A stretch of 46,707 bases of DNA from Ensifer adhaerens. GTDB lineage: Bacteria; Pseudomonadota; Alphaproteobacteria; Rhizobiales; Rhizobiaceae. The stretch's first letter is position 1. Every line of letters begins with the position of its first letter. The stretch lies in NCBI RefSeq assembly GCF_001270265.1, contig NZ_LGAP01000043.1:1-46707 (forward strand). The letters run 5' to 3'. Shown here one piece after another: positions 741 to 41,672 of this stretch. The notes beneath the pieces are model-generated. The model did no database searches and was not told the origin of the DNA. It saw only the letters and a list, made by a program, of their open reading frames with translations. Made by a program: the position numbers and the translations under genes.

Positions 741-824
741 CGCATGACCAAAAGCCGCATGTTGATATGCCTTGCCCGAACCGTTCCGGCGGTTGTCACC
801 TCCGCCGAAGTGTGCGACGAAGGC

Positions 825-1017
825 TTTGATGGTGCTGCGACCGCGACAATGCGGAAGCGGCTGAAAAGGGAACACGGAACGGACGACCCGAATGGGGCCG
901 AAACCGTGGCTGCCCCCGCAACTGTGAGCGGAAAGCGCATTCACACCATGTCACTGGCGATCAGCCGGGAAGACGTGGATGCGCCGCGACCCGCGAGCCA
1001 GGAGACCTGCCATCGAA
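825..1017 (+). promoter_or_regulatory. cobalamin riboswitch
   Basis: The conserved blocks of a class I cobalamin aptamer are present in order: an AAAAGGGAA block near 863, a long GC-rich block with GCAACTGTGAGCGG near 918-932, GGAAGAC near 967, and the B12 box AGCCAGGAGACCTGCC at 996-1011. The closing stem P1 can form between 825-832 and 1010-1017. It precedes an operon for DUF1636 and an ABC uptake system, so it probably shuts that operon off when adenosylcobalamin is abundant. GGACGGGG at about 1033-1040 could be the sequestered ribosome binding site. Confidence 0.93.
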
Positions 1018-1047
1018 CCGATCAACCACAACGGACGGGGTGTTCCG

Positions 1048-9117: not shown

Positions 9118-9152
9118 TAGGGACATGGATGGGCATGTCCGGGGGGTATGAC

Positions 9153-10706
9153 ATGCATTGCCTTCGCATGGTCATGACGGTCTTCCTGGTGCTGATCTGT
9201 TCGCAGGCGCTTGCCGAAAAGCGGGTGGCGCTGGTCATCGGCAATTCGGCCTATCAGCATGTGCCGACGCTGCCCAACCCCGACAACGATGCCGGCGACA
9301 TGGCGGCCAAGCTGAGAGATCTCGGCTTCGAGGTCGTCGTTGGCCGCGACCTCGATCTTGCCGGCGTCCGCAACACGATCCGTGATTTCGTCGGCAAGCT
9401 CGACGGCGCCGACCTGGCGCTGTTCTACTATGCCGGGCACGGCCTGCAGGTGAACGGCGAGAATTACATCGCTCCTGTCGATGCCAAGCTTCTTTCCTAT
9501 ATCGACCTCGAATTCGAGGCGGTGCCGATGAACCTGATCCTTTCGGCGATGGAGCGCAGCACCCGGGTCAATCTGGTGTTTCTCGATGCCTGCCGCGACA
9601 ACCCGCTGGCGGTCAATCTTGCTCGTTCGATGGGCACGCGCTCCAGCTCGATCGGCCGGGGGCTGGCAAAGGTCGGCACCGGCATCGGCTCCTTGATCGC
9701 CTTTGCCACCCAGCCCGGCAACGTCGCGCTCGATGGCGCCGGGCGCAACTCGCCCTTCACTGCCGCTCTGCTTCGCCATCTCGGCAAACCGGGGCGGGAC
9801 ATTACCCGCGAGTTGATCGACGTGCGCCGCGACGTGCTGGAGGCGACCGGCGGCAAACAGGTGCCCTGGGACAATTCCTCTCTGACCGGCGAGGTGGTGC
9901 TGAAGCCGTCGACGACGCCGGAACCCGCCGCATCGGGCGTGAGCGGCAAGAGCGACAATGCCGCCGAGCTGGCCTATTGGGACACGATCAAGGATTCGAG
10001 CGACCGGGACCTGTTCGACGCCTATCTGCAGCAATATCCCGCCGGTACGTTCGTTTCTCTGGCCAAGGCGAAGATCAGGATCATCGAGCGTGCGGCGGGC
10101 GAGGCGGCTGCAACCGAGCAAGTGGCCGCACTGACACCGCCGACCACCGAAACGCCGGTGCTTGAAACGGCCGAGACCGACCGCGAACTGGTACGCTCGA
10201 TCCAGAAGGAGCTGAACCGCGTCGGCTGCCGCGCCGGCAGCGAAGACGGGCTCTGGGGTTTGGGCAGCCGCCGGGCGCTGGAGCAGTTCGCCAGGCTCAG
10301 CAAGGTCGAGCTTGCGGCCCTCGAACCGTCTGGTGACGTGCTGGTGCGGCTGCGGACGCAGAAGGCACGGATCTGCCCACTCGTCTGCGCCCAGAACCAG
10401 CAGCTGAGGGGTGGTCGCTGCGTCGACATCAAGCGCGATGCGAAGCTGCCGGAGCCATCGACGACGCGCAGCACCGGCGAGACGCCGGCCAAAAAGACAC
10501 CATCGAACGCCATCACTGCGCCTGATGACGCCAAGCGAAAGAGTTTTGCTGGCTGCCCGGCCAGCGCCCAGCTCGCCGCCCGGCAGACGTTGGAGCGCGG
10601 CACGGGGCGCGGACGCACGGTGAGATCGGCCACGCATTCCTGTGGCCGCACCTTCGTTTGCCGCCGGGCCGCCCGTGGGCAGCCCTGGGATTGCGACTGG
10701 CGGTGA
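9153..10706 (+). CDS. caspase-like (C14) protein with C-terminal peptidoglycan-binding-like domain
   Basis: Encodes 517 residues, with a signal peptide (1-21, ending QALA). A caspase p20-like domain spans about 23-250, with catalytic-dyad positions H96 in YYAGHG and C147 in LDACRDN, both intact. A linker follows, then a segment (about 340-400) resembling a peptidoglycan-binding-like helical repeat, then a Cys-rich tail (CPLVCAQNQQLRGGRC, and further cysteines at the end). Bacterial orthocaspases cleave after basic residues; this one should act in the periplasm. ATG 9153 follows GGGGGG at about six bases; an ATG eight codons upstream is possible. Confidence 0.88.
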   Translation: MHCLRMVMTVFLVLICSQALAEKRVALVIGNSAYQHVPTLPNPDNDAGDMAAKLRDLGFEVVVGRDLDLAGVRNTIRDFVGKLDGADLALFYYAGHGLQVNGENYIAPVDAKLLSYIDLEFEAVPMNLILSAMERSTRVNLVFLDACRDNPLAVNLARSMGTRSSSIGRGLAKVGTGIGSLIAFATQPGNVALDGAGRNSPFTAALLRHLGKPGRDITRELIDVRRDVLEATGGKQVPWDNSSLTGEVVLKPSTTPEPAASGVSGKSDNAAELAYWDTIKDSSDRDLFDAYLQQYPAGTFVSLAKAKIRIIERAAGEAAATEQVAALTPPTTETPVLETAETDRELVRSIQKELNRVGCRAGSEDGLWGLGSRRALEQFARLSKVELAALEPSGDVLVRLRTQKARICPLVCAQNQQLRGGRCVDIKRDAKLPEPSTTRSTGETPAKKTPSNAITAPDDAKRKSFAGCPASAQLAARQTLERGTGRGRTVRSATHSCGRTFVCRRAARGQPWDCDWR

Positions 10707-28448: not shown

Positions 28449-30521
28449 CTACTCCCGGCTGCGCCGCCGGCGACGGCCGCCGGCTTCGCCGTCGTCGCCG
28501 GTCACCTTGCGCTCCGGCAGGGTGACGACCGCAGACAGTTTCGGGAAGGCGTCGACCTTGTTCGGCATCGCCATCGCGTTGATGAAATGCTCCTGAAATT
28601 TTGATTCAAGTGCGGTCTCTATCTTCTCGATTTTGCTGACGGTTTGCTCGATCTCGCGGCGGTGGCCGCGGTTCAGGAGCGCCATCAGCGCGCCGGTGCC
28701 GGCGGCATTGCCGACCGCTTTCACCTCATCAAGGTCGCAGTCCGGGATCAGGCCCAGCACCATGGCGTATTTCGGGTCGATGAAGGAGCCGAAGGCGCCG
28801 GCAAAGCGGATGGTGTCGACATGGTCGATATCAAGCTTTTCCATCAAGAGCTTGATGCCGGCATAAAGCGCCGCCTTGGCGAGCTGGATGGCGCGGATGT
28901 CGTTCTGCGTCACGGTGATGCGCTGTTCGCCCTGGTGCAGCAGATAGGAGAAGGTGCGGCCGTTGGGGATGATGCGCGGGCTTTTCGCCGCCATCGCGCC
29001 ATCGACGACGCCGTCCTGCGAGATGATGCCGGAGAGATACATCTCGGCGACGATCTCGATGATTGCCGAGCCGCAGATGCCGGTGACGCCGACGGAAGCC
29101 GCCGCCTCGGCAAAGCCGTCCTCGTCGGACCATTTGTCGACGCCGATGACGCGGAAGCGCGGCTCCAGCGTCTCGGGGTCGATGCGCACGCGCTCGATCG
29201 CGCCGGGGGCGGCACGCTGGCCGGAGGAGATTTCCGCACCTTCGAAGGCGGGGCCGGTTGGCGAGGAGGCGGCGACGACGCGATCTTTGTTGCCGAGTAC
29301 GATCTCGGCATTGGTGCCGACATCGACGAGCAGCATCATCTTGTCCTGGCGGTAGGGCCCTTCCGAAAGCGTCGCACCGGCCGCATCGGCGCCGACATGT
29401 CCGGCGATGCAGGGCAACATGTAGAGCCGCGCGCCGCGGTTGACGTCGATGTCGATTTCGTGCGCCCAATATTGCAGCGCGCCGGAGACGGCGAGCGCAA
29501 ACGGCGCCTGGCCGAGTTCGGTCGGATCGATGCCGAGGAACAGGTGGTGCATGATCGGGTTGCCGACGAACACCATGTCGAGAATGTCGTGACGGTCGAC
29601 GTCACCTTCGGCGCAGACCTTGCCGATCAGGCTGTTGACCGCTTCGCGCACCGCCTTGGTCATGGCCTCGCGGCCATCGGGGTTCATCATCACGTAGGAA
29701 ACGCGGCTCATCAGGTCTTCGCCGAAGCGGATCTGCGGGTTTGACGTGCCCGAGGAGCCGACGATGCGGCCCGACAGCAGCGACACCAGGTGCATGGCGA
29801 TGGTCGTCGAGCCGATGTCGCAGGCAACACCATAGGCCTCGTTCTTCAGGCCCGGCCACAGGCCGACGATGAAGGGGCGCGAGGAATCCATGTCGCGGTG
29901 GATCGCGGCGGTGACCGCCCAGTTGCCCTTGCGCAGGATGCCCTGGATCTGTGGGATCAGGTGCGGCGCGATCAGCAGGTCCTTCCAGCCCCAGTCCTTC
30001 TCCAGCATCACCTTCAGCCGGTCGAGATCGCCGAGCGGCTTGTGCATGTCGGGCTCGTCGACTTCGACGTAGCAGAGCTGGACGGCGGCGTTGCGCTCGA
30101 TCACCCGGTCGCTCGCCGCCTTGCGCACCACCTGGGCGTTGATGACCGTGTCCTGCGGCACGTCGATGACGAGATCGCCGAGGATATGGGCGGAACAGGA
30201 GAGGCGGCGTCCGTCGGGCAGCTCGCGCACGGAGGCGTAGCGCTGCTCCTTCGGGCCAACAGGCGAAATATGGTCGTTGGAGGAGACGATCTTGTGCTTG
30301 GCGAAGTTGCCTTCCTGCACCTCGATCTGACAGCGCCCGCAGGTGGCGCGGCCGCCGCAGACGCTTTCGACATAGACCCCGAGCGAGCGTGCGGCATCGA
30401 GAACCGGCGTGCCGACCGGGAAGCGGCTGCGCTTGCCCGACGGCATGAACAGAACGAGGGGGTCCTTGTGCGCGGCTTCGGTCATGTTGGTCTCGATTTC
30501 GGAAGTGCCTTCGATGCGCAT
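28449..30521 (-). CDS. reductive activator of corrinoid protein (RACE), 2Fe-2S + ASKHA ATPase
   Basis: Encodes 690 residues. An N-terminal 2Fe-2S ferredoxin domain has C55, C61, C64 and C109 (CGGRATCGRC ... SCS). A linker follows, then an ASKHA-fold ATPase region with the phosphate-1 loop DIGSTT (235-240). This is the architecture of RACE proteins, which use ATP hydrolysis to return Co(II) corrinoid to Co(I). The C-terminus is Arg-rich (GGRRRRRSR). The start ATG 30521 is the first in-frame Met with a GAGGA upstream; MTEAA at 30485 is the alternative. It is the last gene in the minus-strand group. Confidence 0.93.
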   Translation of the reverse strand: MRIEGTSEIETNMTEAAHKDPLVLFMPSGKRSRFPVGTPVLDAARSLGVYVESVCGGRATCGRCQIEVQEGNFAKHKIVSSNDHISPVGPKEQRYASVRELPDGRRLSCSAHILGDLVIDVPQDTVINAQVVRKAASDRVIERNAAVQLCYVEVDEPDMHKPLGDLDRLKVMLEKDWGWKDLLIAPHLIPQIQGILRKGNWAVTAAIHRDMDSSRPFIVGLWPGLKNEAYGVACDIGSTTIAMHLVSLLSGRIVGSSGTSNPQIRFGEDLMSRVSYVMMNPDGREAMTKAVREAVNSLIGKVCAEGDVDRHDILDMVFVGNPIMHHLFLGIDPTELGQAPFALAVSGALQYWAHEIDIDVNRGARLYMLPCIAGHVGADAAGATLSEGPYRQDKMMLLVDVGTNAEIVLGNKDRVVAASSPTGPAFEGAEISSGQRAAPGAIERVRIDPETLEPRFRVIGVDKWSDEDGFAEAAASVGVTGICGSAIIEIVAEMYLSGIISQDGVVDGAMAAKSPRIIPNGRTFSYLLHQGEQRITVTQNDIRAIQLAKAALYAGIKLLMEKLDIDHVDTIRFAGAFGSFIDPKYAMVLGLIPDCDLDEVKAVGNAAGTGALMALLNRGHRREIEQTVSKIEKIETALESKFQEHFINAMAMPNKVDAFPKLSAVVTLPERKVTGDDGEAGGRRRRRSRE

Positions 30522-30683
30522 TCTGTTCTGTCTTTCCTCAGGGCCGCTTCTGTCCGATGGACCGAAGCATGGGTAAACGGCTTCAGACTGCACCGGAATG
30601 CTGCCTGATAGTTGTCAGATCCCGACATGGAAAGATCTGCGAGCATCATTTCGTCAGGGTTGCGCTCGTGAGGGCGTGTCCGT

Positions 30684-31031
30684 TCACGACGTCTTGCGCG
30701 ACAGGCGCCGGGCATTGCCGCGCACGCGCTTGCCGTAGGGTTTCAGGGCGGCGGCAGCGATCGTCGTTCCGCCCAGGCCAAGCGACGCGCCTCCGCCGGT
30801 CATCAGCCGCACCGTATTGTCGAAGGCGGCGCGCCACAGCGCCATGTTTACGGCCATGACGCTCTCGGCAGTGGCGGCCATCTTTTCGGAGACCATGCGG
30901 TTAAGCTCGGTCGAATCCTGGGTTTTTCCGGTCAATGCCGCCAGTTGCATTTCGTGCAGCCGAAGCGCCATGACGAAAGGGGCCTCGAACCAAAGCGTGA
31001 ACGTGTCCAGATGAAGTCGGCGCGTTGTCAT
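30684..31031 (-). CDS. small hypothetical protein, helical
   Basis: Encodes 115 residues of mostly alpha-helical character (TLWFEAPFVMALRLHEMQLA, then MAATAESVMAVNMALWRAA) ending in basic RRLSRK. It resembles the phasin-like small proteins of rhizobia in composition but I cannot assign a family. It lies between the activator gene and the methyltransferase genes on the same strand, so it may be part of the corrinoid pathway unit. Confidence 0.6.
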   Translation of the reverse strand: MTTRRLHLDTFTLWFEAPFVMALRLHEMQLAALTGKTQDSTELNRMVSEKMAATAESVMAVNMALWRAAFDNTVRLMTGGGASLGLGGTTIAAAALKPYGKRVRGNARRLSRKTS

Positions 31032-31078
31032 CGATGATCCCTGCTCTTGGGCCGCAACAGCGGCGCTCGGATGCCTGA

Positions 31079-31264
31079 CTATGATGCCTTGGTCAGTTTG
31101 GCGACTGCGATTGCCCAGGCAAACGCTGCCGCCAGTGTTGTCGAGCCCACCCAGAAAAGGATATTCGCGACCCGCTTCTGAGAGCCAGGATTGATCTTAT
31201 TCGCCGTCAACGCAACAAGCATGACGGCAAACACCGCGAGGTTTACCAACAGGACCGGCAGGAC
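31079..31264 (-). pseudogene. small membrane-protein ORF truncated at its 5' end
   Basis: An open frame of 61 codons to a TAG encodes two hydrophobic stretches (LPVLLVNLAVFAVMLVALTA, then VANILFWVGSTTLAAAFAW). Reading upstream, an in-frame TAA appears within the palindromic element that starts at 31263, so the original N-terminus seems to be lost. Internal TTG or ATG starts exist, so a short protein is still possible. No family recognised. Confidence 0.35.
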
Positions 31265-31370
31265 TTAAAGCGCGTCGCGATCTCCAGGATCCGCTCGTCG
31301 CGCTTTAAGTTCTATTTTTCGAGCATGTCGTTATTCGCAAAACCGCTGCGCACTTTTGCGCGACATGCTT
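31263..31370. repeat. second RIME-like class, copy at 31.3 kb
   Basis: ACTTAAAGCGCG...CGCGCTTTAAGT, linker TCTATTTTTCGA, then GCATGTCG...CGACATGC with loop AAAACCGCTGCGCACTTTTG. Loop and layout match the element at 10865-10965, but both stems have different sequence. Confidence 0.8.
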
Positions 31371-31486
31371 TAGGTCCTGAGCGCACCGTAGAACCTTTCA
31401 AACTCGTCCGCACCCTCAAACAGTGCGTATCTGGCGATGAGGGCCAAGGGGACAATCAGGGCCAAGAGGCGCAGAAAGCTTCTCAT
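31370..31486 (-). CDS. possible 38-residue membrane peptide
   Basis: ATG 31486, frame MRSFLRLLALIVPLALIARY..., stop TAA at 31370-31372 at the edge of the palindrome. One hydrophobic segment followed by a charged tail (EGADEFERFYGALRT). AGGGG lies 12-16 bases upstream. It is downstream of the pterin methyltransferase gene on the same strand. Short peptides like this are easy to misread, so confidence is low. Confidence 0.35.
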   Translation of the reverse strand: MRSFLRLLALIVPLALIARYALFEGADEFERFYGALRT

Positions 31487-31531
31487 GGCCGGGTTGTCCC
31501 CTTCATATGCCGCGCGGTGGCGAGCAAGAAC

Positions 31532-32497
31532 CTATTCGAGCGCCGCAGCAACGCCGGTGCGCGCAGCACGGCCGCCACGGCGTCCGCCAGCTGCAGCAGC
31601 GACCGGAGCGGCTGCAACCACGTGGCCGCCTTCGGCCGGCTTGTGGTCGCGGTAGGTCTTGATCCAGTGGGTGCAGTTCGGGTCGGTGCCGTTCAGAACG
31701 TTGGCGGCGCGGACGGCCTCCATTTCCTGCGGGCGGCAGGGGTTCATGATCGCCGACGTCATGCCGGCGCCGATGACCATCGGAATGAAGCCCGCGTTGA
31801 TGCCGTGGCGGTGGGGCAGGCCGAAGGAGATGTTGGAAAGGCCGCAGGTGGTGTTGACTTTCAGTTCCTCGCGCAGGCGGCGCAGAAGCGCAAAGACCTG
31901 CTTTCCGGCGGTACCCATGGCGCCGATTGGCATGACCAGCGGATCGACAATGATGTCGTGCGACTTGATGCCGTAGTCGGCGGCGCGCTCGACGATCTTC
32001 TTGGCGACCGCGAAACGCACATCAGGATCTTCCGAAATGCCGGTTTCGTCATTGGAAATGGCCACAACCGGCACGTCGTACTTCTTGCAGAGCGGCAGGA
32101 TCGCCTCGAGCTTTTCCTCTTCGCCGGTGACGGAGTTGACGAGCGGCCGGCCCTTGGCGACGCGCAACGCTGCCTCGATGGCGGCAGATACCGAGCTGTC
32201 GATCGACAGCGGCACGTCGACGAGGCCCTGAACGATTTCCAGTGTCCGAACCAGGAGCGGCGGTTCGGTCTCGTTCGGGTTGACGGCGGTGACGCCGGCA
32301 TTGACGTCGAGCATCGTCGCACCCGCGGCGACCTGTGCCAGCGCATCATGGATGACGGTGTCGAAATTGCCTTCGATCATTTCCGCTGCCAGCTTCTTGC
32401 GGCCGGTCGGGTTGATGCGTTCGCCAATGACGCAGAAGGGCTGGTCGAAACCGATGATGATTTCGCGGGTTGCGGAAGCGACGATGGTACGGGTCAT
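31532..32497 (-). CDS. methyl-corrinoid:H4F methyltransferase (pterin-binding, AcsE/DHPS-like)
   Basis: Encodes 321 residues, a TIM barrel of the pterin-binding family: GERINPTGRKKLA, MLDVNAGVTAVNPNE and VPLSIDSS are the signature strands, and the family's conserved Asn and Asp residues are present. AcsE and MtgA-type proteins pass methyl groups between corrinoid protein and tetrahydrofolate. The C-terminus is an Ala/Gly/Arg tail with GGRRGGRAART. It probably moves methyl groups from the corrinoid protein at 38251 to H4F. The start at 32497 follows GGATC and is the natural N-terminus of this family. Confidence 0.92.
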   Translation of the reverse strand: MTRTIVASATREIIIGFDQPFCVIGERINPTGRKKLAAEMIEGNFDTVIHDALAQVAAGATMLDVNAGVTAVNPNETEPPLLVRTLEIVQGLVDVPLSIDSSVSAAIEAALRVAKGRPLVNSVTGEEEKLEAILPLCKKYDVPVVAISNDETGISEDPDVRFAVAKKIVERAADYGIKSHDIIVDPLVMPIGAMGTAGKQVFALLRRLREELKVNTTCGLSNISFGLPHRHGINAGFIPMVIGAGMTSAIMNPCRPQEMEAVRAANVLNGTDPNCTHWIKTYRDHKPAEGGHVVAAAPVAAAAGGRRGGRAARTGVAAALE

Positions 32498-32596
32498 GTA
32501 AGATCCTTTGATCCTGTGGCGTCGGGCTATGTAATCTCACCCGTTGATCGATGTAAGGCGCGGGATCGAACCCGCGCCGGTTTGTCTGCAATTGCC

Positions 32597-33688
32597 TCAG
32601 TGGGGATGGTGGGCGGCGGCCTCGGCCATCTCCTGCTGGTTTTCTTCCTTGCCTTCGCGAATGTGCTCCATGCGGGAGGCGACAAGTGCATCGGTCGGCA
32701 GCGTCTCGTGCTTCCAGGGCTTGCGGCCCTTCAGCACGCCCGATTCATGCACGATCTCTGCGACATATTCTTCCTGACGATAGGCCATGACGTGGACGCC
32801 GGAGACGCCTTCGATCTCCTTGACCTCGTTGATAATGTCGATGCAGAGCTGCTTGCCTTCCTTTTTCTGGTCCTGGGCACCTTCCAGCCGCGTGATGATG
32901 CTGTCGGGAATGTGGATGCCCGGCACGTTGGAGCGGATCCAGCGGGCGGTCTTGGCTGACGCCATCGGCCCGACGCCGACCAGGATGAAGCATTTTTCGT
33001 GCAGGCCGAGATCGCGCACCTTCTTCATGTACTCGCGGAACATCGGCACGTCGAAGCAATACTGGCTCTGCACGAACTGTGCGCCGGCCTCGATCTTCTT
33101 GGCCAGCCGATAGGGGCGGAAGTCATAGGGCGGGGCAAAGGGGTTGATGGCGGCACCAAGAAACACCTGTGGCGGCGTCGTCAGCTTGCGGCCCGAGAGG
33201 AACTTGGAATTGTCGCGCATGATGCGCACGGTTTCGAGCAGCGACATGCAGTCGAGGTCGAACACCGGCTTGGCGCCCGGCTGATCGCCGGCCTGCACGC
33301 CATCGCCGGTCAGGCACAGGACGTTCTGCACGCCCATGGCCGAGGCGCCGAGCACGTCGCCCTGGATGGCGATGCGGTTCTTGTCGCGGCAGGCAATCTG
33401 CATGATCGGCGCATAGCCCATGCGCGTCAGGAGCGCGCAGATGCCGACCGACGACATGTGGCAATTGGCGCCCGAAGCATCGACCGCGTTGATGCCGTCG
33501 ACCCAGCCGTCGAAAATCGCGGCGCGCTCGTAGACGTCCTGCGGGTTGGCGCTGTCGGGCGGGTTGAGTTCGGCGGTCACCGCGAATTCGCCGCGGCGCA
33601 GCACGCGCTCGAGCCGTCCACGCGAGGAGTGACCGGGCAAGGGATCGAGCGGCGCGCCGGGATCGTGTGGGTTGTAGTCGGGGCTCAT
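32597..33688 (-). CDS. metF: methylenetetrahydrofolate reductase
   Basis: Encodes 363 residues. FAVTAELNPPDSANPQDVYE, DGINAVDASGANCHMSS, GDVLGASAMGVQNVLCLTGD and VFLGAAINPFAPPYDFR are MTHFR (FAD-binding TIM barrel) segments. It should oxidise methyl-H4F to methylene-H4F in this context; MetF runs the other way in methionine synthesis. The start overlaps the stop of the next upstream gene (ATGA at 33685-33688), so the two are coupled. The pairing with a MetV-like protein resembles the anaerobic MetF-MetV complex. The C-terminus is rich in Glu/Gln/Ala/His. Confidence 0.93.
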   Translation of the reverse strand: MSPDYNPHDPGAPLDPLPGHSSRGRLERVLRRGEFAVTAELNPPDSANPQDVYERAAIFDGWVDGINAVDASGANCHMSSVGICALLTRMGYAPIMQIACRDKNRIAIQGDVLGASAMGVQNVLCLTGDGVQAGDQPGAKPVFDLDCMSLLETVRIMRDNSKFLSGRKLTTPPQVFLGAAINPFAPPYDFRPYRLAKKIEAGAQFVQSQYCFDVPMFREYMKKVRDLGLHEKCFILVGVGPMASAKTARWIRSNVPGIHIPDSIITRLEGAQDQKKEGKQLCIDIINEVKEIEGVSGVHVMAYRQEEYVAEIVHESGVLKGRKPWKHETLPTDALVASRMEHIREGKEENQQEMAEAAAHHPH

Positions 33689-34293
33689 GCCTGGTTCTCT
33701 TTTGCCTGAGCTTCGCGGAGGGCTGCGGCTTCCGCCGTCACCCGCAGCCAAGAGGAGGTTTCGCGCAGCGACTGGTTCACCGGCTTCTGCACGTTCATGA
33801 TCGCATCGCCCTTCACCATATTCTGCGAGCCTTTCCACGCCTGCACCCAGACGCAGGGCATATCCGGCTCGACCTCGCAATTGCCGTTGGCGCGCACGCC
33901 GCCGCAGGGGCCGTTGCGCAGCTGCTTCGGACAGTTCATCGGGCAGGACATGCCGGTCGATGACAGTGCGCACTGACCGCACATGCGACAGTCGAAGAGA
34001 AAGCCTTTGACGTGGCGTTCGACGAAGGTGACGGGTCGCTCCACCCTGTTGTAGCCGATCGCCTTCCACAACGGATGCAAGAGCAGGAACATGTCGGCAA
34101 AGCGGTTGTAGAACCATTCGAGGAAGCGCGAATGGCGCACGGCCCATAGGCGAACGGTATATTTGTGGCGCGAGCGGCGGCTGGGGGAGACGCCGGCTGG
34201 GGTATAGGCGCCGGTCGCGGCCTTGGCAGCGGGTGCGGCGTTGCCCTTGACGATCTTCGTTTCGATTGCGTCTGCGACCTTCGGGTCAGCCAT
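33685..34293 (-). CDS. MetV-like Cys-rich protein (MTHFR C-terminal-domain family)
   Basis: Encodes 202 residues. The Cys-rich segment CRMCGQCALSSTGMSCPMNC, followed by CGG and further Cys, matches the zinc/cluster-binding domain of MetV-type proteins that complex with MetF in acetogens. The N-terminus is basic (PSRRSRHK). It may supply electron-transfer or structural partners to MetF. ATG 34293 follows GGAGG. It overlaps both its neighbours, MetF at the 3' side and the 'virulence factor' gene at the 5' side, so it is transcribed and probably translated with them. Confidence 0.88.
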   Translation of the reverse strand: MADPKVADAIETKIVKGNAAPAAKAATGAYTPAGVSPSRRSRHKYTVRLWAVRHSRFLEWFYNRFADMFLLLHPLWKAIGYNRVERPVTFVERHVKGFLFDCRMCGQCALSSTGMSCPMNCPKQLRNGPCGGVRANGNCEVEPDMPCVWVQAWKGSQNMVKGDAIMNVQKPVNQSLRETSSWLRVTAEAAALREAQAKENQA

Positions 34294-34588
34294 TGTCGCG
34301 GCCTCCTGCCTTGACCAGGGCGACCAGGCGCTCGCGATCAAAGGCCGCTTCGAGTTCGGAAGCGGCACGGTCGGCTTCCGCTTCCAGGTCGTCGGAAACC
34401 GGCACGGGGTCGGCCTTGCGCCATTCGGCGAGATAATCGTCGGTTTCGGCAGCACCAGTGCGCATGGCGCACATGTCGATCGCCTCGGTGAAGCGCAGCG
34501 AAAGCTCGCGCTTTGCGGTCGTGCGGCCCCGTTTGATGATGACCTGGGCCGGGATGTCGCGCCAGTAGACGATTATGCGATCTGCCAT
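34286..34588 (-). CDS. 'virulence factor' domain protein
   Basis: Encodes 100 residues. MADRIIVYWRDIPAQVIIKR and ELSLRFTEAIDMCAMRTGAA fit the small family labelled 'virulence factor' in domain collections, whose role is unknown. It overlaps the MetV-like gene by eight bases, in an operon with MetF. Its recurring place with corrinoid genes suggests an accessory function. The name should not be taken as evidence of virulence. Confidence 0.82.
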   Translation of the reverse strand: MADRIIVYWRDIPAQVIIKRGRTTAKRELSLRFTEAIDMCAMRTGAAETDDYLAEWRKADPVPVSDDLEAEADRAASELEAAFDRERLVALVKAGGRDNG

Positions 34589-34628
34589 CGGGTGTCGTTC
34601 TCCTCTTCTGCGACAATGCTTATGTCCC

Positions 34629-34657
34629 GGCGTCGTGGCTCACCTCGCCACGACGTT
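34629..34657. promoter_or_regulatory. palindrome upstream of the MetF-operon
   Basis: CGTCGTGG...CCACGACG, an eight-base-arm inverted repeat around CTCACCTCG, lies about 45 bases upstream of the 'virulence factor' gene. It could be an operator or a hairpin in the 5' untranslated region. Confidence 0.35.
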
Positions 34658-34846
34658 GGATATGTCCAAAAACGACGCCGGCGTAGAACGTTGAAAACAC
34701 CCAGCACTCTACGCGTTGCCGCGATGCGAGCAAGTCCGGGGCACGGTAAGTCCATCTATTGGGGAGTGCTAGAAATTTCAGGGGCTTAGAGCCTTCGAAC
34801 GGCCAAATGTGGTGACGCGACAGTTGTCGCGCTCCGCCCAATTTTC

Positions 34847-35650
34847 CTACCAGATGCCGCGCCGAATTCCGTTCCAGAGCCATGTCCAGATTGGCGGGTG
34901 ATACCATTGTTGCGACGGGCCTGCGACATCGAGCGATCGCAGCTTGCCTTGCAGAGCATCGTCGATTGCGGCAATGGCGATGTCGGTGGAGGCGGCCGTC
35001 TGCAGCAGCGGATAGGTGTGCATCGTGTCGGCTTCTGTGGGCGTCTGGCGCGACTGGTAGAGAATGCCGCCGGTGTCGACGCCTTCGTCGACGAGATGCA
35101 CGCTCGCGCCGAAATTGCCGACGTCGTCGTTGATCCGCGCCCAGTAGCCGCCCATCAGCCCGCGATAGCGCGGATTGATGCCGGCATGGAAATTGACGAC
35201 CGGGCAGGGCATTGCCGCAAGCGTCGCCTTCGTCAACATGCGGCAACTGATGAGAAAGACGACTTGCGGGGCGAGCTGCCGGATCTCGGACACGGCGCCG
35301 GCGTCGTTCACCGAAACGATCTGCTGCATCCGCACCCTGGGATCCGGCACGCCTGAGACACCGTAGAGCCTCAGGATCTCGTCCGCTCTTTGCCGGGTAA
35401 AGCGCTTGCCGAAACGCGAGGCGATCATCGTCGCCAGTTGCCCGATCGCCGTCGGCCAACCGAGCTTTCGCGCCCGCCGGCGCAGGAAGAGACCCTTGGA
35501 TTCCGGCTGTTCCTCGAAGACGACGACATCGTCGAAGCGCGCCGAAAGCGCGTTGATCATGATCCATGGATTCTCGCCGCCCGCCGTCACCACGACGACG
35601 CGGCCCGGCCGCTTACCGGTGACCATGATCTCGTTTTCTGCGTCCGCCAT
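34847..35650 (-). CDS. formyltransferase family protein
   Basis: Encodes 267 residues. VVVVTAGGENPWIMINAL at the front and NFHAGINPRYRGLMGGYWA, followed by GASVHLVDEGVDTGGILY, are the formyltransferase (PF00551-type) signature with the N-H-D catalytic triad (Asn in NFHAG, His, and the downstream Asp). It should transfer a formyl group from 10-formyl-H4F to an amine; whether it works on a sugar nucleotide or something else is unknown. It lies between the corrinoid genes. ATG 35650 follows AGAGG. Confidence 0.83.
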   Translation of the reverse strand: MADAENEIMVTGKRPGRVVVVTAGGENPWIMINALSARFDDVVVFEEQPESKGLFLRRRARKLGWPTAIGQLATMIASRFGKRFTRQRADEILRLYGVSGVPDPRVRMQQIVSVNDAGAVSEIRQLAPQVVFLISCRMLTKATLAAMPCPVVNFHAGINPRYRGLMGGYWARINDDVGNFGASVHLVDEGVDTGGILYQSRQTPTEADTMHTYPLLQTAASTDIAIAAIDDALQGKLRSLDVAGPSQQWYHPPIWTWLWNGIRRGIW

Positions 35651-35899
35651 GCCGGCCTCTGATGCGTTGGTCGTTGCAGATATGGCGGCTGCCAAGTTAC
35701 CGGCGACTTAATGCTGCTAGCGCGGGCAACCGAGGGCGTCACAGGCGGTGTGTCGTTTCTCGGCTTGTTGTCCGTCTGATCGCTGGACTGCTGCGCTCGC
35801 CTGATGAGCAGAAGCTGCGCAGCCCGACCGCTCTTTAGGGCGTGTTCAGCTTTTTGTGTCACCTCTCATGCGTCCGTTTCACAAGCCGGAGAGTCGAGG

Positions 35900-37129
35900 A
35901 TGGGCGTCGTGACGCTAGGGGACGTTGATCGCCAGATCGGCCGCGGGTTCAAGTTCCTGCGCTTTTCGCCCGATATCGAGACGGCGTTCCTTCACGACTA
36001 CGCCGCAAGCCGCATCAGACTTGCGGCTGTCTGGGCAATCATCGGCACGCTGATCTACGACAGCGTCTTCTTCGGCGACGCAACGATGATGCCGGATGTG
36101 TTCTCTGAACTCGTCACCGTGCGCTTCGGCATCTTCACGCCCTTTGCCCTCTTCAGCGTGCTGGCACTCAGGCGCTGGCCGAGCGCGCGCAACTACGATC
36201 TGTTGTCCATCTCTGTCGCGGTGCTCGGTGTGTCGCTGCCGATGTCGGTCGCCGTCTTCAGCAACAGTCCCTACCTGTTCGTCTACCAGAACGGCAATGT
36301 CGCGGCGTTCCTGTTCTTCGTCGTCGCACTCCGGCCTCGAATTTTGACTATCTTGGTCGGTCTGGCACTGATGTGTGCAGTGCAATTCACAACGACGAAG
36401 CTGAACGGCACCTTCGACGATGTCACCTATACCGGGATCGTCACCTTCTATGTCACGCTGACGATTTTCCTGGCGATGAGCGCCTATTTCATGGAGCACA
36501 AGGATCGGCTGAATTTCCTTCACCAACTGCGCGGCAGCCTGCTGCATGCTGAGCTGGAGCGCAAATCTGAGCGCGACGAACTGACCGGTCTCTTCAACCG
36601 CCATTCGCTGGCGCGGGTGCGCCAGACAATCTGGAGCAGGCAGAGTGCTGCCGCCGTGGCGGTGATCATGCTCGATATCGACCGCTTCAAGCTCTTCAAC
36701 GACGTTCACGGCCATATCGAAGGCGACGATTGCCTGCGTGCCGTCTGCCATTGCATCCTGCTTGAGGTTGGCAGCGCGGGCGAAACCTTCCGCTTCGGTG
36801 GCGAGGAAATCCTGGTGCTGATGACTGATGTCGAACAGGAGCAGGCAATCGAAACGGCAGAGAGGATCAGGGCGGCGATCGAGGCGCTTCGCATCCGCAA
36901 CCGTGGCCTTGGCGACGGACAACTCGTCACGGCAAGCCTTGGCGTCGCCTTCGGCAATGCCGACGAAGCCTCGCTGGAAGACCTGCTTCGAGCGGCGGAT
37001 GCTGCGCTCTACCAGGCGAAGCGCGATGGCCGGAATACCGTGTCGATCTTTGACGTCGCGCGGCGCGGTCCGACCGGCTCAGGCCCAGGGGACGACACGG
37101 CCCGGGCTCCGATCCCGCTGGCGAGCTGA
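35900..37129 (+). CDS. membrane-bound diguanylate cyclase
   Basis: Encodes 409 residues. Six hydrophobic segments (about 40-200, e.g. AAVWAIIGTLIYD, FAVLAL..., LTIFLAMSAYF) form an N-terminal membrane sensor. The C-terminal GGDEF domain (from about 225: DELTGLFNRHSL) has active-site GGEEI at 300-304; the last residue of the signature is Ile rather than Phe, which is tolerated in active cyclases. No RxxD site is seen. The start follows GGAGAG. It is opposite in strand to the surrounding corrinoid genes and may be unrelated to them. Confidence 0.92.
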   Translation: MGVVTLGDVDRQIGRGFKFLRFSPDIETAFLHDYAASRIRLAAVWAIIGTLIYDSVFFGDATMMPDVFSELVTVRFGIFTPFALFSVLALRRWPSARNYDLLSISVAVLGVSLPMSVAVFSNSPYLFVYQNGNVAAFLFFVVALRPRILTILVGLALMCAVQFTTTKLNGTFDDVTYTGIVTFYVTLTIFLAMSAYFMEHKDRLNFLHQLRGSLLHAELERKSERDELTGLFNRHSLARVRQTIWSRQSAAAVAVIMLDIDRFKLFNDVHGHIEGDDCLRAVCHCILLEVGSAGETFRFGGEEILVLMTDVEQEQAIETAERIRAAIEALRIRNRGLGDGQLVTASLGVAFGNADEASLEDLLRAADAALYQAKRDGRNTVSIFDVARRGPTGSGPGDDTARAPIPLAS

Positions 37130-37177
37130 CCTCCGCCGCTTCCCTTGCCTTGAATTGCACCAGGGGGCGGTTGAGGG

Positions 37178-37798
37178 TCAAGCGCCCAAGAGCGACGTCG
37201 TCAGGTCGCCATAGCCCGTGAACCGGTATTCGTATTCGAGGCCGAGATAGTCGGCGGCCTCTTTGGCCTTTGCCTGCAGCGCCTCGTCCTCCTGCTGCGA
37301 GAGATAGACGAGCTTACGGTAGTGGCCGAAATACATGTCCCTGAGCTCCGGATGGCGCTTGAGGCCGAGCGGTTCGATGACGAAGGCCTCGAACTGGCGG
37401 GCGAGGAAATCGGTGAGAAAGAAGGCGGTGATATCGTCGTCCCAGCGGCTGGCGAAGGCGTCGTTGCCGGCGAAGAAGGAGTAGCAGTGCGGGCCGGGGA
37501 TGCGCTCGACACGTTCTTCTTCGCAGAGCCGGTCCAGGTGGCCGCCGGTGCCGCAATCGGCATAGGCGACGAAGATGCGCTCAAAGCCCTCCTGCCGCGC
37601 CTTGGCGATCGCCTCCCTGACACCCGGCGTGATCTTGTCGGGGGTGTTGTGCCAGATGGCGGGCAGACAGGTCAGGTCGACATGGTCGAGCTTGTTGGCC
37701 TGACAGATGGCGAGGATTTCGCGCGCGATGGCGCCACAACCGATGACGTGAACTTTTTCCGGTTGTGCACGTTCTATTGCGCGCGATACTTTTTCCAT
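37178..37798 (-). CDS. DUF1638 family protein
   Basis: Encodes 206 residues. VHVIGCGAIAREI, CLPAIWHNTPDKI, and YADCGTGGHLDRLC are hallmarks of DUF1638, which recurs next to MttB-type methyltransferase genes and is of unknown function. Its Cys-rich character (CGAIA, DCGTGG, CLP) hints at metal or corrinoid binding. The start at 37798 follows GGAATCGAG. It precedes the entericidin gene on the opposite strand. Confidence 0.88.
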   Translation of the reverse strand: MEKVSRAIERAQPEKVHVIGCGAIAREILAICQANKLDHVDLTCLPAIWHNTPDKITPGVREAIAKARQEGFERIFVAYADCGTGGHLDRLCEEERVERIPGPHCYSFFAGNDAFASRWDDDITAFFLTDFLARQFEAFVIEPLGLKRHPELRDMYFGHYRKLVYLSQQEDEALQAKAKEAADYLGLEYEYRFTGYGDLTTSLLGA

Positions 37799-37837
37799 CT
37801 CGATTCCATCCAGTGATCAACGTGAAGGAAACTGGCC

Positions 37838-37996
37838 ATGAAAACACAAACTCTTGCCACCGTCGGCGCCATTCTCATCGCCCTTACGACGCTGAGCGCC
37901 TGCGGCAATACGATCCGTGGCATCGGCCAGGATACCGCAAACACCGTCAACGCGACACAGGCGGCCGGCAAGAAGGTGGTCCGCGCCGCCAACTGA
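37838..37996 (+). CDS. entericidin-like lipoprotein
   Basis: Encodes 52 residues. It has a type II signal with lipobox LSAC (C22 lipidated), and the remaining mature part GNTIRGIGQDTANTVNATQA is the entericidin EcnA/EcnB pattern. Entericidins are small membrane lipoproteins tied to stationary-phase bacteriolysis in enteric bacteria; the role in rhizobia is not known. GAAGGA precedes the ATG. Confidence 0.85.
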   Translation: MKTQTLATVGAILIALTTLSACGNTIRGIGQDTANTVNATQAAGKKVVRAAN

Positions 37997-38192
37997 GCCT
38001 CCGTCTGAGGCGCCGCGCGCCGAGTTCGGGCTCGATCCGCTTTGATGCCCGGGCTTCTCGCTTGATGTTCCGCGCCCGTCGCGGCGAGGAACATAAAGAG
38101 ACAGTTCGGACGCGCCGATTTTCCATCGACATCGCCGCATGGTGGGCGGTTGCGCCGCATCGCAAAATCCCACCGTTTTCATGCCAGCAAAT

Positions 38193-38231
38193 GAAAAGCC
38201 GGCCGCGAGCGTCATTGCTGCGGCCGGCTTT
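38193..38231 (-). terminator. terminator of the corrinoid-protein gene
   Basis: On the minus strand AAGCCGGCCGC...GCGGCCGGCTT followed by TTC: an 11-bp GC-rich stem shortly after the stop of the corrinoid-protein gene. Confidence 0.8.
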
Positions 38232-38250
38232 CCGTGTTCGTGAAGCAGGC

Positions 38251-38949
38251 TCAGCCGGCAGCGAGCAGGTTGTGCTTGCGCTTCATGAAGTCCTTGGCGG
38301 TTTCGACCGCGATCGCCGCGTCGCGGCAATAGGCGTCGGCGCCGACGGCCTTGCCGAATTCCTCGTTGAGCGGCGCGCCGCCGACGAGAACGACGTAGTC
38401 GTCACGCAGTCCTTTTTCCTTCAGCGTATCGATGACGACCTTCATGTAGGGCATGGTGGTGGTCAGCAGCGCCGACATGCCGAGAATGTCCGGCTGCTCG
38501 CGCTCGATCGCTTCCAGATAATTTTCGACCGGATTGTTGATGCCGAGGTCGACGACGTCGAAGCCGGCGCCTTCCATCATCATGCCGACGAGGTTCTTGC
38601 CGATGTCGTGAATGTCGCCCTTGACGGTGCCGATGACCATCTTGCCGAGCTTCGGTGCGCCGGTTTCGGCGAGCAGCGGCCGCAGAATGAACATGCCGGC
38701 CTTCATCGCATTGGCCGACAGCAGAACTTCCGGCACGAACAGGATGCCGTCACGGAAGTCGACGCCGACGATGCGCATGCCTTCGACCAGCGCCTGGGTC
38801 AGGACGTCGTAGGGCGTCCAACCGCGCTTGAGCAGGATGTTGGTTCCGTCCTCGATCTCCTCCTTGAGGCCGTCATAGAGGTCGTCATGCATCTGCTGCA
38901 CAAGTTCCTCGTCGGAAAGGTCCTCGAGAATGATTTCATCGTCTGCCAT
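38251..38949 (-). CDS. corrinoid (cobalamin-binding) protein, MtbC/MtgC-like
   Basis: Encodes 232 residues. The N-terminal helical cap (about 1-95) and the Rossmann-type B12-binding domain carry DIHDIG with H114 as the base-off cobalt ligand (D112, H114, G117), then SALLTTTM and LVGGAPLN. This is the methyl-carrying partner of MttB-family methyltransferases. It is divergent from that methyltransferase gene (start 337 bases away), so both can be regulated by the intergenic region. Confidence 0.95.
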   Translation of the reverse strand: MADDEIILEDLSDEELVQQMHDDLYDGLKEEIEDGTNILLKRGWTPYDVLTQALVEGMRIVGVDFRDGILFVPEVLLSANAMKAGMFILRPLLAETGAPKLGKMVIGTVKGDIHDIGKNLVGMMMEGAGFDVVDLGINNPVENYLEAIEREQPDILGMSALLTTTMPYMKVVIDTLKEKGLRDDYVVLVGGAPLNEEFGKAVGADAYCRDAAIAVETAKDFMKRKHNLLAAG

Positions 38950-39171
38950 AGTAGGGTTCCTCGGTTCCTGGCACGGCCGGGCTAAAATCCGGACACGTTC
39001 ACCAATCAATAGCGGTCGACGTGTAAAAATCTGTTTTCGAAAGCGACGTCGCATATGACAAAAAGCGACGGGAGGGCGGCTTCTTTCGAGGCCTGTATAT
39101 TCTTAACAAAAACAATATATTCGCGCCATGCGGTTTTTGGCCGGCCATGACGCAGATCGCAGTGTTCGAGT

Positions 39172-39190
39172 TGCGCCACTCGTTGGCGCA
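39172..39190. promoter_or_regulatory. perfect inverted repeat between corrinoid-protein and methyltransferase genes
   Basis: TGCGCCA-CTCGT-TGGCGCA, seven-base arms with a five-base spacer, lies 96 bases upstream of the methyltransferase ATG. Another palindrome, GCGACGTCGC, lies at 39043-39052 nearer the corrinoid-protein gene. The 38950-39285 gap contains no other gene. Confidence 0.4.
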
Positions 39191-39285
39191 TTGAGACCCG
39201 TACAGTCCCTGCGGCTTGGTAGCATTAGGGCCAATTGGTGCTTGAAGGCGCAAGATATCGAAATGCGCGGGAGAGGAATGAGTAA

Positions 39286-40860
39286 ATGAGCGACGTGACA
39301 GAACAGGACGCGGTTGAGGGTGGCGGTCGCCGCTCGCGTGGCGAGGGGCGGGGAGCGGCGGCACGGCGTGCCTCGCGCACCGGCGGCGGCCCGGGGCCGT
39401 CTCTGCCCTATATCCAGCGCAAGATTCGCGAATACGAGGTCCTGGACGAGGAGGGCCTGCAGCTCATCGAGCGCAATGCCGATACGATCCTGGAGGAAAT
39501 CGGCATCGAGTTCCGTGATGACGCCGAGGCGCTCGAACTCTGGAAAGAGGCCGGCGCCGATGTGCGCGGCCAGCGCGTTCACTTCCCCAAGGGGCTCTGC
39601 CGCGAACTTCTGAAAACCGCACCGTCCGAATTCACCTGGCACGCCCGCAATCCTGCGCGCAGCGCCCAGGTCGGCGGCAAGGCGACGATCTTCGCGCCGG
39701 TCTATGGCCCGCCCTTCGTCCGCGATCTCGAAGGCGTAAGGCGTTACGCGACCATCGAGGACTTCCGCAATTTCGTGAAGCTCGCCTATATGGCGCCGTC
39801 GATGCATTCGTCCGGCGGCACGGTCTGCGAGCCCGTCGACATTCCGGTGAACAAGCGTCACCTCGACATGGTCTACAGCCACATCAAATATTCCGACAAG
39901 CCGTTCATGGGATCGGTGACGGCGCCCGAGCGCGCCGAGGACACGATCGCCATGGCCAAGCTCGTGTTCGGCGACGAGTTCGTCGAAAACAATTGCGTCA
40001 CACTCAACCTGATCAACGCCAACTCGCCGATGGTCTTCGACGAGACCATGGTGGGCGCGCTCAAGGTCTATGCCCGCCACAATCAGGCCTGCGTGCTTTC
40101 GCCGTTCATCCTGTCGGGCGCCATGAGCCCGGTGACGGTTGCCGGCACGCTGACGCAGATTCTTGCCGAAGTGCTGGCCGGCGCCTCGTTCACCCAGCTG
40201 ATCCGCAAGGGCGCGCCGGTGCTGTTCGGTACCTTTGCCGCCTCGATCTCGATGCAGTCGGGCGCACCGACCTTCGGCACGCCGGAGCCGTCGCTGGTTT
40301 CCTATGGCGCGGCACAGCTGGCCCGCCGCTTGAAGCTGCCGTTCCGCACCGGCGGTTCGCTCTGCGGCTCCAAGGTTCCGGACGCTCAAGCCGCGCACGA
40401 ATCGGCCAACACGCTGAACATGACGCTGCTCGCCGGCACCAATTTCGTGCTGCATGCGGCCGGCTGGCTCGAAGGCGGTCTTATTTCTTCCTATGAGAAG
40501 TTCATGATCGACCAGGACCAACTCGGCATGATGCAGAAGATGGCCGAAGGCGTGGATCTCTCGGAGAACGCCCAGGCGCTGGACGCCATCCGTGAAGTCG
40601 GTCCGGGCAGCCACTATCTCGGCTGCGCCCACACCCAGGCCAATTTCCAGACGGCTTTCTACCGCTCGCCGCTCGCCGACAACAATTCCTACGAACAGTG
40701 GGAAGTGGAAGGCGAAAAGCGCATCGAGCAGCGCGCCAATGCGCTCGCCCGCAGCTGGCTGGAGCATTACGAGGCACCCTATCTCGATCCGGCAATCGAT
40801 GACGCGCTCAAGGCCTTTATTGAGGAGCGCAAGAACTCGATGCCAGACGCCTTCACTTGA
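39286..40860 (+). CDS. MttB-superfamily corrinoid methyltransferase (non-pyrrolysine)
   Basis: Encodes 524 residues with no in-frame amber codon, so it does not use pyrrolysine. The N-terminus is Arg/Gly-rich (GGGRRSRGEGRGAAARRASR). The following TIM barrel has LPYIQRKIREYEVLDEEGLQ, IGIEFRDDAEAL, and SHYLGCAHTQANFQTAF, as in the trimethylamine:corrinoid methyltransferase (MttB) family. Non-Pyl members demethylate glycine betaine, proline betaine, carnitine and related compounds. Substrate here is unknown. GAGAGG precedes the ATG. It is divergent from its corrinoid protein gene. Confidence 0.95.
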   Translation: MSDVTEQDAVEGGGRRSRGEGRGAAARRASRTGGGPGPSLPYIQRKIREYEVLDEEGLQLIERNADTILEEIGIEFRDDAEALELWKEAGADVRGQRVHFPKGLCRELLKTAPSEFTWHARNPARSAQVGGKATIFAPVYGPPFVRDLEGVRRYATIEDFRNFVKLAYMAPSMHSSGGTVCEPVDIPVNKRHLDMVYSHIKYSDKPFMGSVTAPERAEDTIAMAKLVFGDEFVENNCVTLNLINANSPMVFDETMVGALKVYARHNQACVLSPFILSGAMSPVTVAGTLTQILAEVLAGASFTQLIRKGAPVLFGTFAASISMQSGAPTFGTPEPSLVSYGAAQLARRLKLPFRTGGSLCGSKVPDAQAAHESANTLNMTLLAGTNFVLHAAGWLEGGLISSYEKFMIDQDQLGMMQKMAEGVDLSENAQALDAIREVGPGSHYLGCAHTQANFQTAFYRSPLADNNSYEQWEVEGEKRIEQRANALARSWLEHYEAPYLDPAIDDALKAFIEERKNSMPDAFT

Positions 40861-40967
40861 AAGGGTCCCGAACGAGCCAGGGAGCAAGGCGGCGCGGCGC
40901 AGGTGGCTGACATGATCCAGAAGGAGGTCTGGCGCCCGCATTACGATCTACAGGGGCCGAAACCGAA

Positions 40968-41672
40968 ATGACGGCGCCTTCCGCACCTGCGGACACTGTT
41001 CTCGAAATCGTCCGTGCGGCTCTTGAGCCGCACGGACTTTTTTTGCGTGGCACGCTGAATTTCGCTTCCAGTGATGCCGCGCCGCTGCTGGCGGATGGCC
41101 GGCCTGCGGCAAGCGTGGTGCTGATCGGCAATATCGGCGGCTCGCTGTGGCAGCCGTTCGTGCGCTGGCGTGAGGAAGCGCCGGATCGCGGCGGCGCCGA
41201 CCCGCTCGACACTTGGTCTAAGGCGGTGATCGGCGAGATCGCCCGGGCAAATGGGGCGACGGCCTATTTCCCGTCCGATCCGCCGTGGCAGCCGTTCCAG
41301 CAATGGGCGATGCGGGCGGAAGGGCTGAAGGCTTCACCGCTCGGCATTCTCATCCACCCGCGCTACGGCCTATGGCACGGCTATCGCGGCGCGCTGGCTT
41401 TCGCCATGGCCTTACCGGCCGATGGCGAGCGGACGACCGCGCATCCCTGTGACAGCTGCGTGGAAAAACCGTGCATTGCCGCCTGTCCCGCCGGCGCGCT
41501 CGAGCGCCTGCAATTCGATGTCGGCCGCTGTCGCAGCCATCTCAGGACGGAGGCGGGCAGGAGCGGTTGTCTCAAGCGCGGATGCCTTGCGCGCGATGCC
41601 TGTCCCGTCGGGCGGGACTATCGCTATCCGCGCGATCAGCTACACTTTCACATGGCTGCGCTCAGCCTTTGA
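40968..41672 (+). CDS. ferredoxin-like protein, QueG-type 4Fe-4S segment
   Basis: Encodes 234 residues. C-terminal cysteines CDSCVEKPCIAACP, followed by C..., CLKRGCLARDAC, resemble the 4Fe-4S region of QueG, a cobalamin-dependent reductase; the N-terminal half (about 1-120) has no separate recognised domain. It follows the methyltransferase by 107 bases on the same strand, so it may be its electron donor or a corrinoid reductase. No B12-binding motif is visible in it. The N-terminal part lacks the QueG substrate domain as I know it. Confidence 0.8.
   Translation: MTAPSAPADTVLEIVRAALEPHGLFLRGTLNFASSDAAPLLADGRPAASVVLIGNIGGSLWQPFVRWREEAPDRGGADPLDTWSKAVIGEIARANGATAYFPSDPPWQPFQQWAMRAEGLKASPLGILIHPRYGLWHGYRGALAFAMALPADGERTTAHPCDSCVEKPCIAACPAGALERLQFDVGRCRSHLRTEAGRSGCLKRGCLARDACPVGRDYRYPRDQLHFHMAALSL

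Follow-up and report, generated by a model that had tools for sequence, protein, structure and literature searches.

A probable mtg locus for corrinoid-dependent betaine demethylation in the rhizobium Ensifer adhaerens

Introduction

A stretch of 46,707 nucleotides from the 7.46-Mb genome of Ensifer adhaerens (G000; contig C38, positions 1–46,707, hereafter the window) carries what we read as a rhizobial mtg locus. It would encode a modular corrinoid-dependent demethylase by which an aerobe feeds the methyl groups of glycine betaine, or of a close relative, into folate-linked one-carbon (C1) oxidation; we put the probability of this reading at roughly 0.82. The gene identities, their conservation in relatives and their co-occurrence across genomes are established in this analysis, and the host is judged to be aerobic from its relatives. 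An original prediction, made from the letters of the window, had named six genes of the set and drawn a route from a betaine-type donor through a corrinoid and methyl-tetrahydrofolate (methyl-H4F) to methylene-H4F. Domain searches recovered all six with scores far above chance, and both the gene assignments and the route are supported by the results obtained here. B12-dependent betaine demethylation has long been tied to anaerobes and recently to marine bacteria; the present reading extends it to many rhizobia, bacteria that associate with plants rich in betaine.

In the proposed pathway, MtgB would demethylate glycine betaine, the most likely substrate, or else a close relative, and place the methyl group on the cob(I)alamin of MtgC; MtgD would pass it from methyl-MtgC to H4F. 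A MetV–MetF pair would then convert methyl-H4F to methylene-H4F, handing the electrons to a presumed acceptor and delivering the carbon to C1 oxidation. The activator RACE, together with a DUF1638 protein whose part is presumptive, would re-reduce corrinoid that has slipped to cob(II), and a CblC-like protein encoded at 40968 probably handles or reduces corrinoid too.

Genes of the locus

The methyltransferase gene mtgB (39286–40860, plus strand) encodes 524 amino acids of a non-pyrrolysine MttB-family quaternary-amine:corrinoid methyltransferase (PF06253, 768 bits). It is divergent from mtgC (38251–39054, minus strand; start probably near 38949), whose product is a corrinoid carrier with B12-binding_2 (PF02607) and B12-binding (PF02310) domains and a DIHDIG motif, and whose best NCBIfam match is the MtgC model (212 bits, under the 370-bit cut-off). 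On the mtgC side lies the gene for the DUF1638 protein (37178–37798, minus strand; PF07796, 103 bits), a presumed partner in corrinoid reactivation. On the same strand as mtgB and 107 bp 3′ of it lies the gene at 40968–41672, whose product has a CblC/MMACHC-like predicted fold and a C-terminal eight-cysteine region and is a presumed cobalamin-handling partner.

A further series on the minus strand comprises metV, metF, mtgD, a phasin-like gene and RACE. The metV-like gene (33685–34293, start probably 34293; PF12225 or DUF5981, 96 bits) encodes the iron-sulfur subunit, and metF (32597–33688; PF02219 or MTHFR, 116 bits; 363 amino acids) the catalytic subunit, of a MetFV-type methylene-H4F reductase. 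They are followed by an mtgD-type methyl-corrinoid:H4F methyltransferase gene (31532–32497; Pterin_bind PF00809; NCBIfam PRK07535, 399 bits against a cut-off of 259) and by the gene for a RACE/RamA-like reductive activator (28449–30593). The activator combines a 2Fe-2S domain (Fer2, PF00111) with an ASKHA part, represented by the RACo linker, middle and C-terminal families PF17650, PF17651 and PF14574.

The methyltransferase, corrinoid protein with DIHDIG, activator and corrinoid:H4F methyltransferase had all been assigned as such beforehand, and these assignments hold. For the pair proposed as MetF and MetV-like the families are borne out, and what changes is the start of metF, which most likely lies at 33688 and not at 34147, so that it overlaps the 3′ end of metV by 4 bp. 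The earlier inventory was also incomplete, having missed the DUF1638 protein, the CblC-like iron-sulfur protein, a probably neighbouring mtgE and a formyltransferase-like gene.

Conservation and co-occurrence

A scan of relatives with mtgB as bait gave at least 584 confirmed places, of which the best 80 were kept. All locus counts refer to these 80, in which mtgB is present by construction and which extend only 10 kb to either side; they come from records of rhizobia, among them Rhizobium, Sinorhizobium/Ensifer, Shinella and Neorhizobium, with families not verified individually. The mtgC and DUF1638 genes occur in all 80, the 40968 gene in 79 (it is missing from L048), mtgD in 75, RACE in 69, metV in 67 and metF, counted with the corrected frame, in 64. 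Seven of the 11 loci without RACE stop at or just beyond metF or mtgD, and the other four (L006–L008 and L015) cannot be judged. The original prediction had staked itself on these genes being kept together in related genomes, and so they are.

A sample of 144 Alphaproteobacteria genomes was searched for MttB, RACE, DUF1638, the 40968 protein, MetV and the MetH activation domain; the resulting counts, and likewise their Fisher p values, ignore shared ancestry. MttB is present in 32 genomes. RACE was found in 34, comprising every one of the 32 with MttB (as partial matches in G006 and G062) and two of the 112 others, and DUF1638 in 30, divided 29 to one between the same groups. MetV occurs in 15 genomes, 13 with MttB and two without, and in 11 of them at most 5 kb separate it from DUF1638; in Alphaproteobacteria MetV and MetF are linked with mtg genes. 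The MetH activation domain is present in 82 genomes, 13 of them with MttB. The presence of RACE and DUF1638 in MetH-bearing Sinorhizobium meliloti, described as unexplained by Price et al. (2018, PMC5764234), would be accounted for by an mtg demethylase locus.

Substrate of MtgB

The frame of mtgB is open and without an in-frame stop, and the pyrrolysine of trimethylamine MttB aligns with a leucine in the window protein. MtgB matches PDB 4yyc along its full length (1123 bits), an entry that we take to be an S. meliloti protein, and is up to 99% identical to Ensifer and Sinorhizobium records. Across 468 residues it is 44% identical to MtgB of Desulfitobacterium hafniense, whose structure is PDB 2qne according to PMC6855144 and is also named as MtgB in PMC9842639. 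The glycine betaine contacts predicted by docking in that enzyme, Y94, N199, R309 and H345 (PMC6855144), correspond to Y140, N244, R354 and H390 of the window protein, so that all four are kept. These residues, together with the leucine in the pyrrolysine column, agree with, without proving, a betaine carrying a carboxylate as substrate; glycine betaine is foremost among such candidates, and this is the most likely assignment.

Two further MttB genes lie elsewhere in the genome, one at C8:53998–55488 beside a divergent gene for a LysR-type regulator, the other at C12:566049–567530. The three MttB genes stand against one stand-alone MtgC-type PF02607 protein, that of the window, and one RACE; a single MtgC may therefore serve all three enzymes. 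This arrangement invites the view that the machinery is as proposed and that the substrate of the window MtgB is a different quaternary amine (proline betaine, carnitine, butyrobetaine or a plant betaine), with the C8 or C12 enzyme taking glycine betaine and MtgC common to all three. Consistent with this view, the C8 paralogue has the same four predicted contact residues (the C12 paralogue has alanine in place of the contact tyrosine), and Eubacterium is said to pair several MttB proteins of differing specificity with one MtgC (PMC12478193). The window copy, on the other hand, stands beside mtgC in all 80 loci, mtgB itself being the bait, as would fit a common substrate, and glycine betaine raises two MttB proteins in Ruegeria (PMC12478193); neither point is strong, and we regard a different amine as possible, if doubtful. 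The 11 matches to the GcvT domain (PF01571) in the genome could include dimethylglycine and sarcosine enzymes, in line with the main reading.

Methionine synthesis and mtgE

The homocysteine module PF02574 does not occur in the window and has four matches in the genome: MetH on C56, and one each on C44, C49 and C7. The C44 match (C44:26028–26861) is a stand-alone mtgE/bmt candidate on a contig that the assembly leaves unjoined to C38. In 75 of the 80 loci a gene for a relative of its protein follows mtgB downstream, in opposite orientation; the distance from mtgB is 8–9 kb in L004 and L006–L008, which are close relatives. In a comparison with these four relatives, a 3.6-kb stretch near the window end and the end of C44 proved colinear with their loci; the intervening stretch, which includes an acyltransferase gene on C44, is not matched by them. 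Because of these counts and this colinearity, mtgE probably belongs to the locus and was severed from it by the contig break. Such an arrangement agrees with the statement that in S. meliloti mtgBCDE, two reactivation modules and a cobalamin operon are co-localised (PMC12478193).

The recurrent mtgE and the colinear contig ends also lend themselves to an account in which methionine synthesis by a split enzyme of the Phaeobacter kind (mtgC, mtgD and mtgE) is the main task of the locus and mtgB forms a side branch, the more so as RACE and DUF1638 are needed for methionine in Phaeobacter (PMC5764234). Against it stands a full MetH, a frame of 1277 amino acids with its own activation domain, so that MetH is neither missing nor replaced here; moreover, glycine betaine use is retained in an S. 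meliloti bmt mutant supplied with methionine (PMC12478193). We consider this account unlikely, and a split methionine synthase and nothing else was rejected on the grounds of the full MetH. Given that enzyme, the locus probably serves methionine synthesis only to a minor extent or under certain conditions.

The MetV–MetF pair and the direction of transfer

The pair has the features of MetFV-type reductases: metV lies 5′ of metF, and MetV carries the NGPCGG signature and eight cysteines. Among NCBIfam models MetF matches PRK08645 best, with a score under the cut-off, and a PDB sequence search with MetV gave chance matches only. Given the potential of NAD+, electron transfer from methyl-H4F to NAD+ would run uphill, and an iron-sulfur partner passing electrons to a higher-potential acceptor would thus make sense. 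The methylene-/methyl-H4F couple lies at −200 mV, and MetFV-type reductases occur mainly in anaerobic bacteria (PMC8515935). MetFV bears on how an aerobe oxidises methyl-H4F.

The reverse direction, with MetFV making methyl-H4F and MtgD loading MtgC for biosynthesis or reductive methylation, recalls the reductive working of acetogen MetFV (PMC8515935) and the suggested bidirectionality of MtgD in Ruegeria (PMC12478193), but it is very improbable, since the characterised MttB enzymes in the cited papers remove methyl groups from amines, the fairly high-potential acceptor that a −200 mV couple requires for oxidation should be at hand in respiring cells, and MetF2 is the most increased protein on betaines in Ruegeria (PMC12478193).

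Evidence against the proposed pathway

Several observations weigh against betaine demethylation coupled to C1 oxidation as the function of the locus. The NCBIfam scores of MtgC, RACE and MttB all fall under the cut-offs of those models. The substrate residues come from docking in another species and are shared by the C8 paralogue, and a fifth predicted position, F353, is glycine in the window MtgB. In 12 of the 80 loci mtgD and DUF1638 are present but metF has no match, and in nine of the 12 metV is lacking too; MetV occurs in only 13 of the 32 MttB genomes and is absent from 19; MetFV is by these counts not indispensable for the mtg systems of Alphaproteobacteria. Three MttB genomes (G006, G062 and G093) gave no DUF1638 match. 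A GbcB-like reductase encoded in the genome (393 bits, under a 500-bit cut-off) allows a second, oxygen-dependent betaine route, and no experiments on this strain were found in the open-access literature.

The protein at 40968

The predicted model of the 40968 protein matches MMACHC structurally, scoring above unrelated folds, at 14–16% sequence identity to the human protein. The Pfam family MMACHC (PF16690) scores 11.8 bits, below its cut-off of 27; among 25 aligned members of the 40968 family ten match it at E ≤ 1 (best 0.029), and a PDB sequence search with the family returned iron-sulfur proteins only (best E 0.081). MMACHC itself is not known to carry an eight-cysteine region. Identification as a plain ferredoxin was rejected, as no Pfam family scores above its cut-off for the window protein and the structure is MMACHC-like.

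At a threshold of E < 1e-20 the protein is present in 31 of the 144 genomes; a further match in G099 (E 2.5e-14) and nine genomes with only E > 1e-7 were left out of this count, 41 genomes having any match. Its distribution, 23 of 32 MttB genomes against 7 of the 69 with a MetH activation domain but no MttB, led us to reject a general MetH partner. A tight link to mtg genes is challenged by its presence in 8 of the 112 MttB-less genomes and its lack in nine of the 32 with MttB. The same holds for its neighbourhoods, which were examined with their flanks for 28 of the 30 strong matches outside its own genome (all except G006 and G050). An mtg-type gene lies near the homologue in five of these stretches (L151, L157, L158, L169 and L175), and none was found in the other 23, some of which are short and all with frames called by a crude script. 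The stretches around the weak matches L166–L168 likewise gave no mtg match.

One tentative proposal, which we hold with a good deal of doubt, is that the protein is a dedicated CblC–ferredoxin hybrid, in which a CblC-like cobalamin pocket and the protein's own iron-sulfur clusters would reduce or dealkylate corrinoid and so load or rescue MtgC in air. It would then represent a third reactivation module beside RACE and DUF1638 and, together with MetFV, mark out the pathway in an aerobic form. Both conserved partners, MetFV and the CblC-like protein, appear little described; the latter bears on whether such a protein keeps corrinoid reduced in air.

In G107, a genome without MttB, one contig encodes RACE and a second carries 40968-type, MtgC-like and DUF1638 genes among genes of another kind. 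In its stretch L151 (6681–11028) these three are interleaved with two genes that are alike at their N-termini. Our guess is that this set may belong to a different corrinoid methyltransferase system, and the reactivation set may accordingly serve other corrinoid methyltransferases.

Other features of the window

The phasin-like gene between mtgD and RACE (30684–31031, minus strand; NCBIfam PhaP6, 53.5 bits against a cut-off of 100) is probably a passenger; found in 44 of the 80 loci, it hints at a tie of the locus to polyhydroxybutyrate storage. The formyltransferase-like gene (34847–35695, minus strand; PF00551, 48 bits), an optional member present in 43 loci, encodes a protein that could use 10-formyl-H4F produced by the pathway. 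A diguanylate cyclase (GGDEF) gene starting at 35804 was rejected as a member, being a local insert found in only four loci.

A cobalamin riboswitch (813–1028, plus strand; 119.5 bits) precedes a DUF1636 gene and genes reaching 4495, including those for an ATP-binding cassette uptake set: an ATPase (1531), a periplasmic protein (2379) and a FecCD permease (3440). The set probably imports B12 or cobalt; some 27 kb separate it from the mtg genes. A caspase-domain protein (Peptidase_C14) is encoded at 9129–10706 in this rhizobium.

Comparison with known systems

The closest counterparts are the MtgBCD(E) systems of Ruegeria pomeroyi and S. meliloti, both, like E. adhaerens, Alphaproteobacteria, with which the locus shares a PF06253 MtgB, a B12-binding MtgC, a pterin-binding MtgD, a metF paralogue and, probably, a nearby MtgE (PMC12478193). 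As in the aerobic MtgBCD demethylase, MtgC and MtgD are separate proteins and are accompanied by a RamA-like activator and DUF1638. A study of R. pomeroyi DSS-3 by knockouts and proteomics showed that growth on glycine betaine depends on mtgC and mtgD (Mausz et al. 2025, PMC12478193). That work covers MtgBCDE, a RamA-like protein, DUF1638 and MetF2 in aerobes, where such a set, which the original prediction had contrasted with an aerobe-like genome, is no longer a surprise. Its main text, figures and supplement aside, makes no mention of MetV, ferredoxin, iron-sulfur or formyltransferase. Unlike R. pomeroyi, E. adhaerens has a full MetH, a combination with mtgBCD that is found in some Hyphomicrobiales (PMC12478193).

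The split methionine synthase of Phaeobacter inhibens (Price et al. 2018, PMC5764234) likewise has separate B12-binding, pterin-binding and homocysteine modules with RACE and DUF1638, the latter two being important for growth without methionine, but Phaeobacter lacks MetH. Compared with MtgB of the anaerobe D. hafniense, the window protein retains 44% identity and the four contacts in a host that appears to be aerobic; the methyl-corrinoid:H4F enzyme of the window is PRK07535-like and may or may not be related to D. hafniense MtgA. For the 40968 protein the closest known systems are human CblC/MMACHC, the reductive dehalogenases and QueG. MetFV resembles that of Clostridium ljungdahlii, with metV directly 5′ of metF, the NGPCGG signature and cysteines for two clusters, and metV and metF overlap as in Moorella (PMC8515935). 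The electron partner of the C. ljungdahlii enzyme is other than NAD(P)H (PMC8515935); unlike that enzyme, the pair in E. adhaerens lies beside mtg genes and presumably runs oxidatively.

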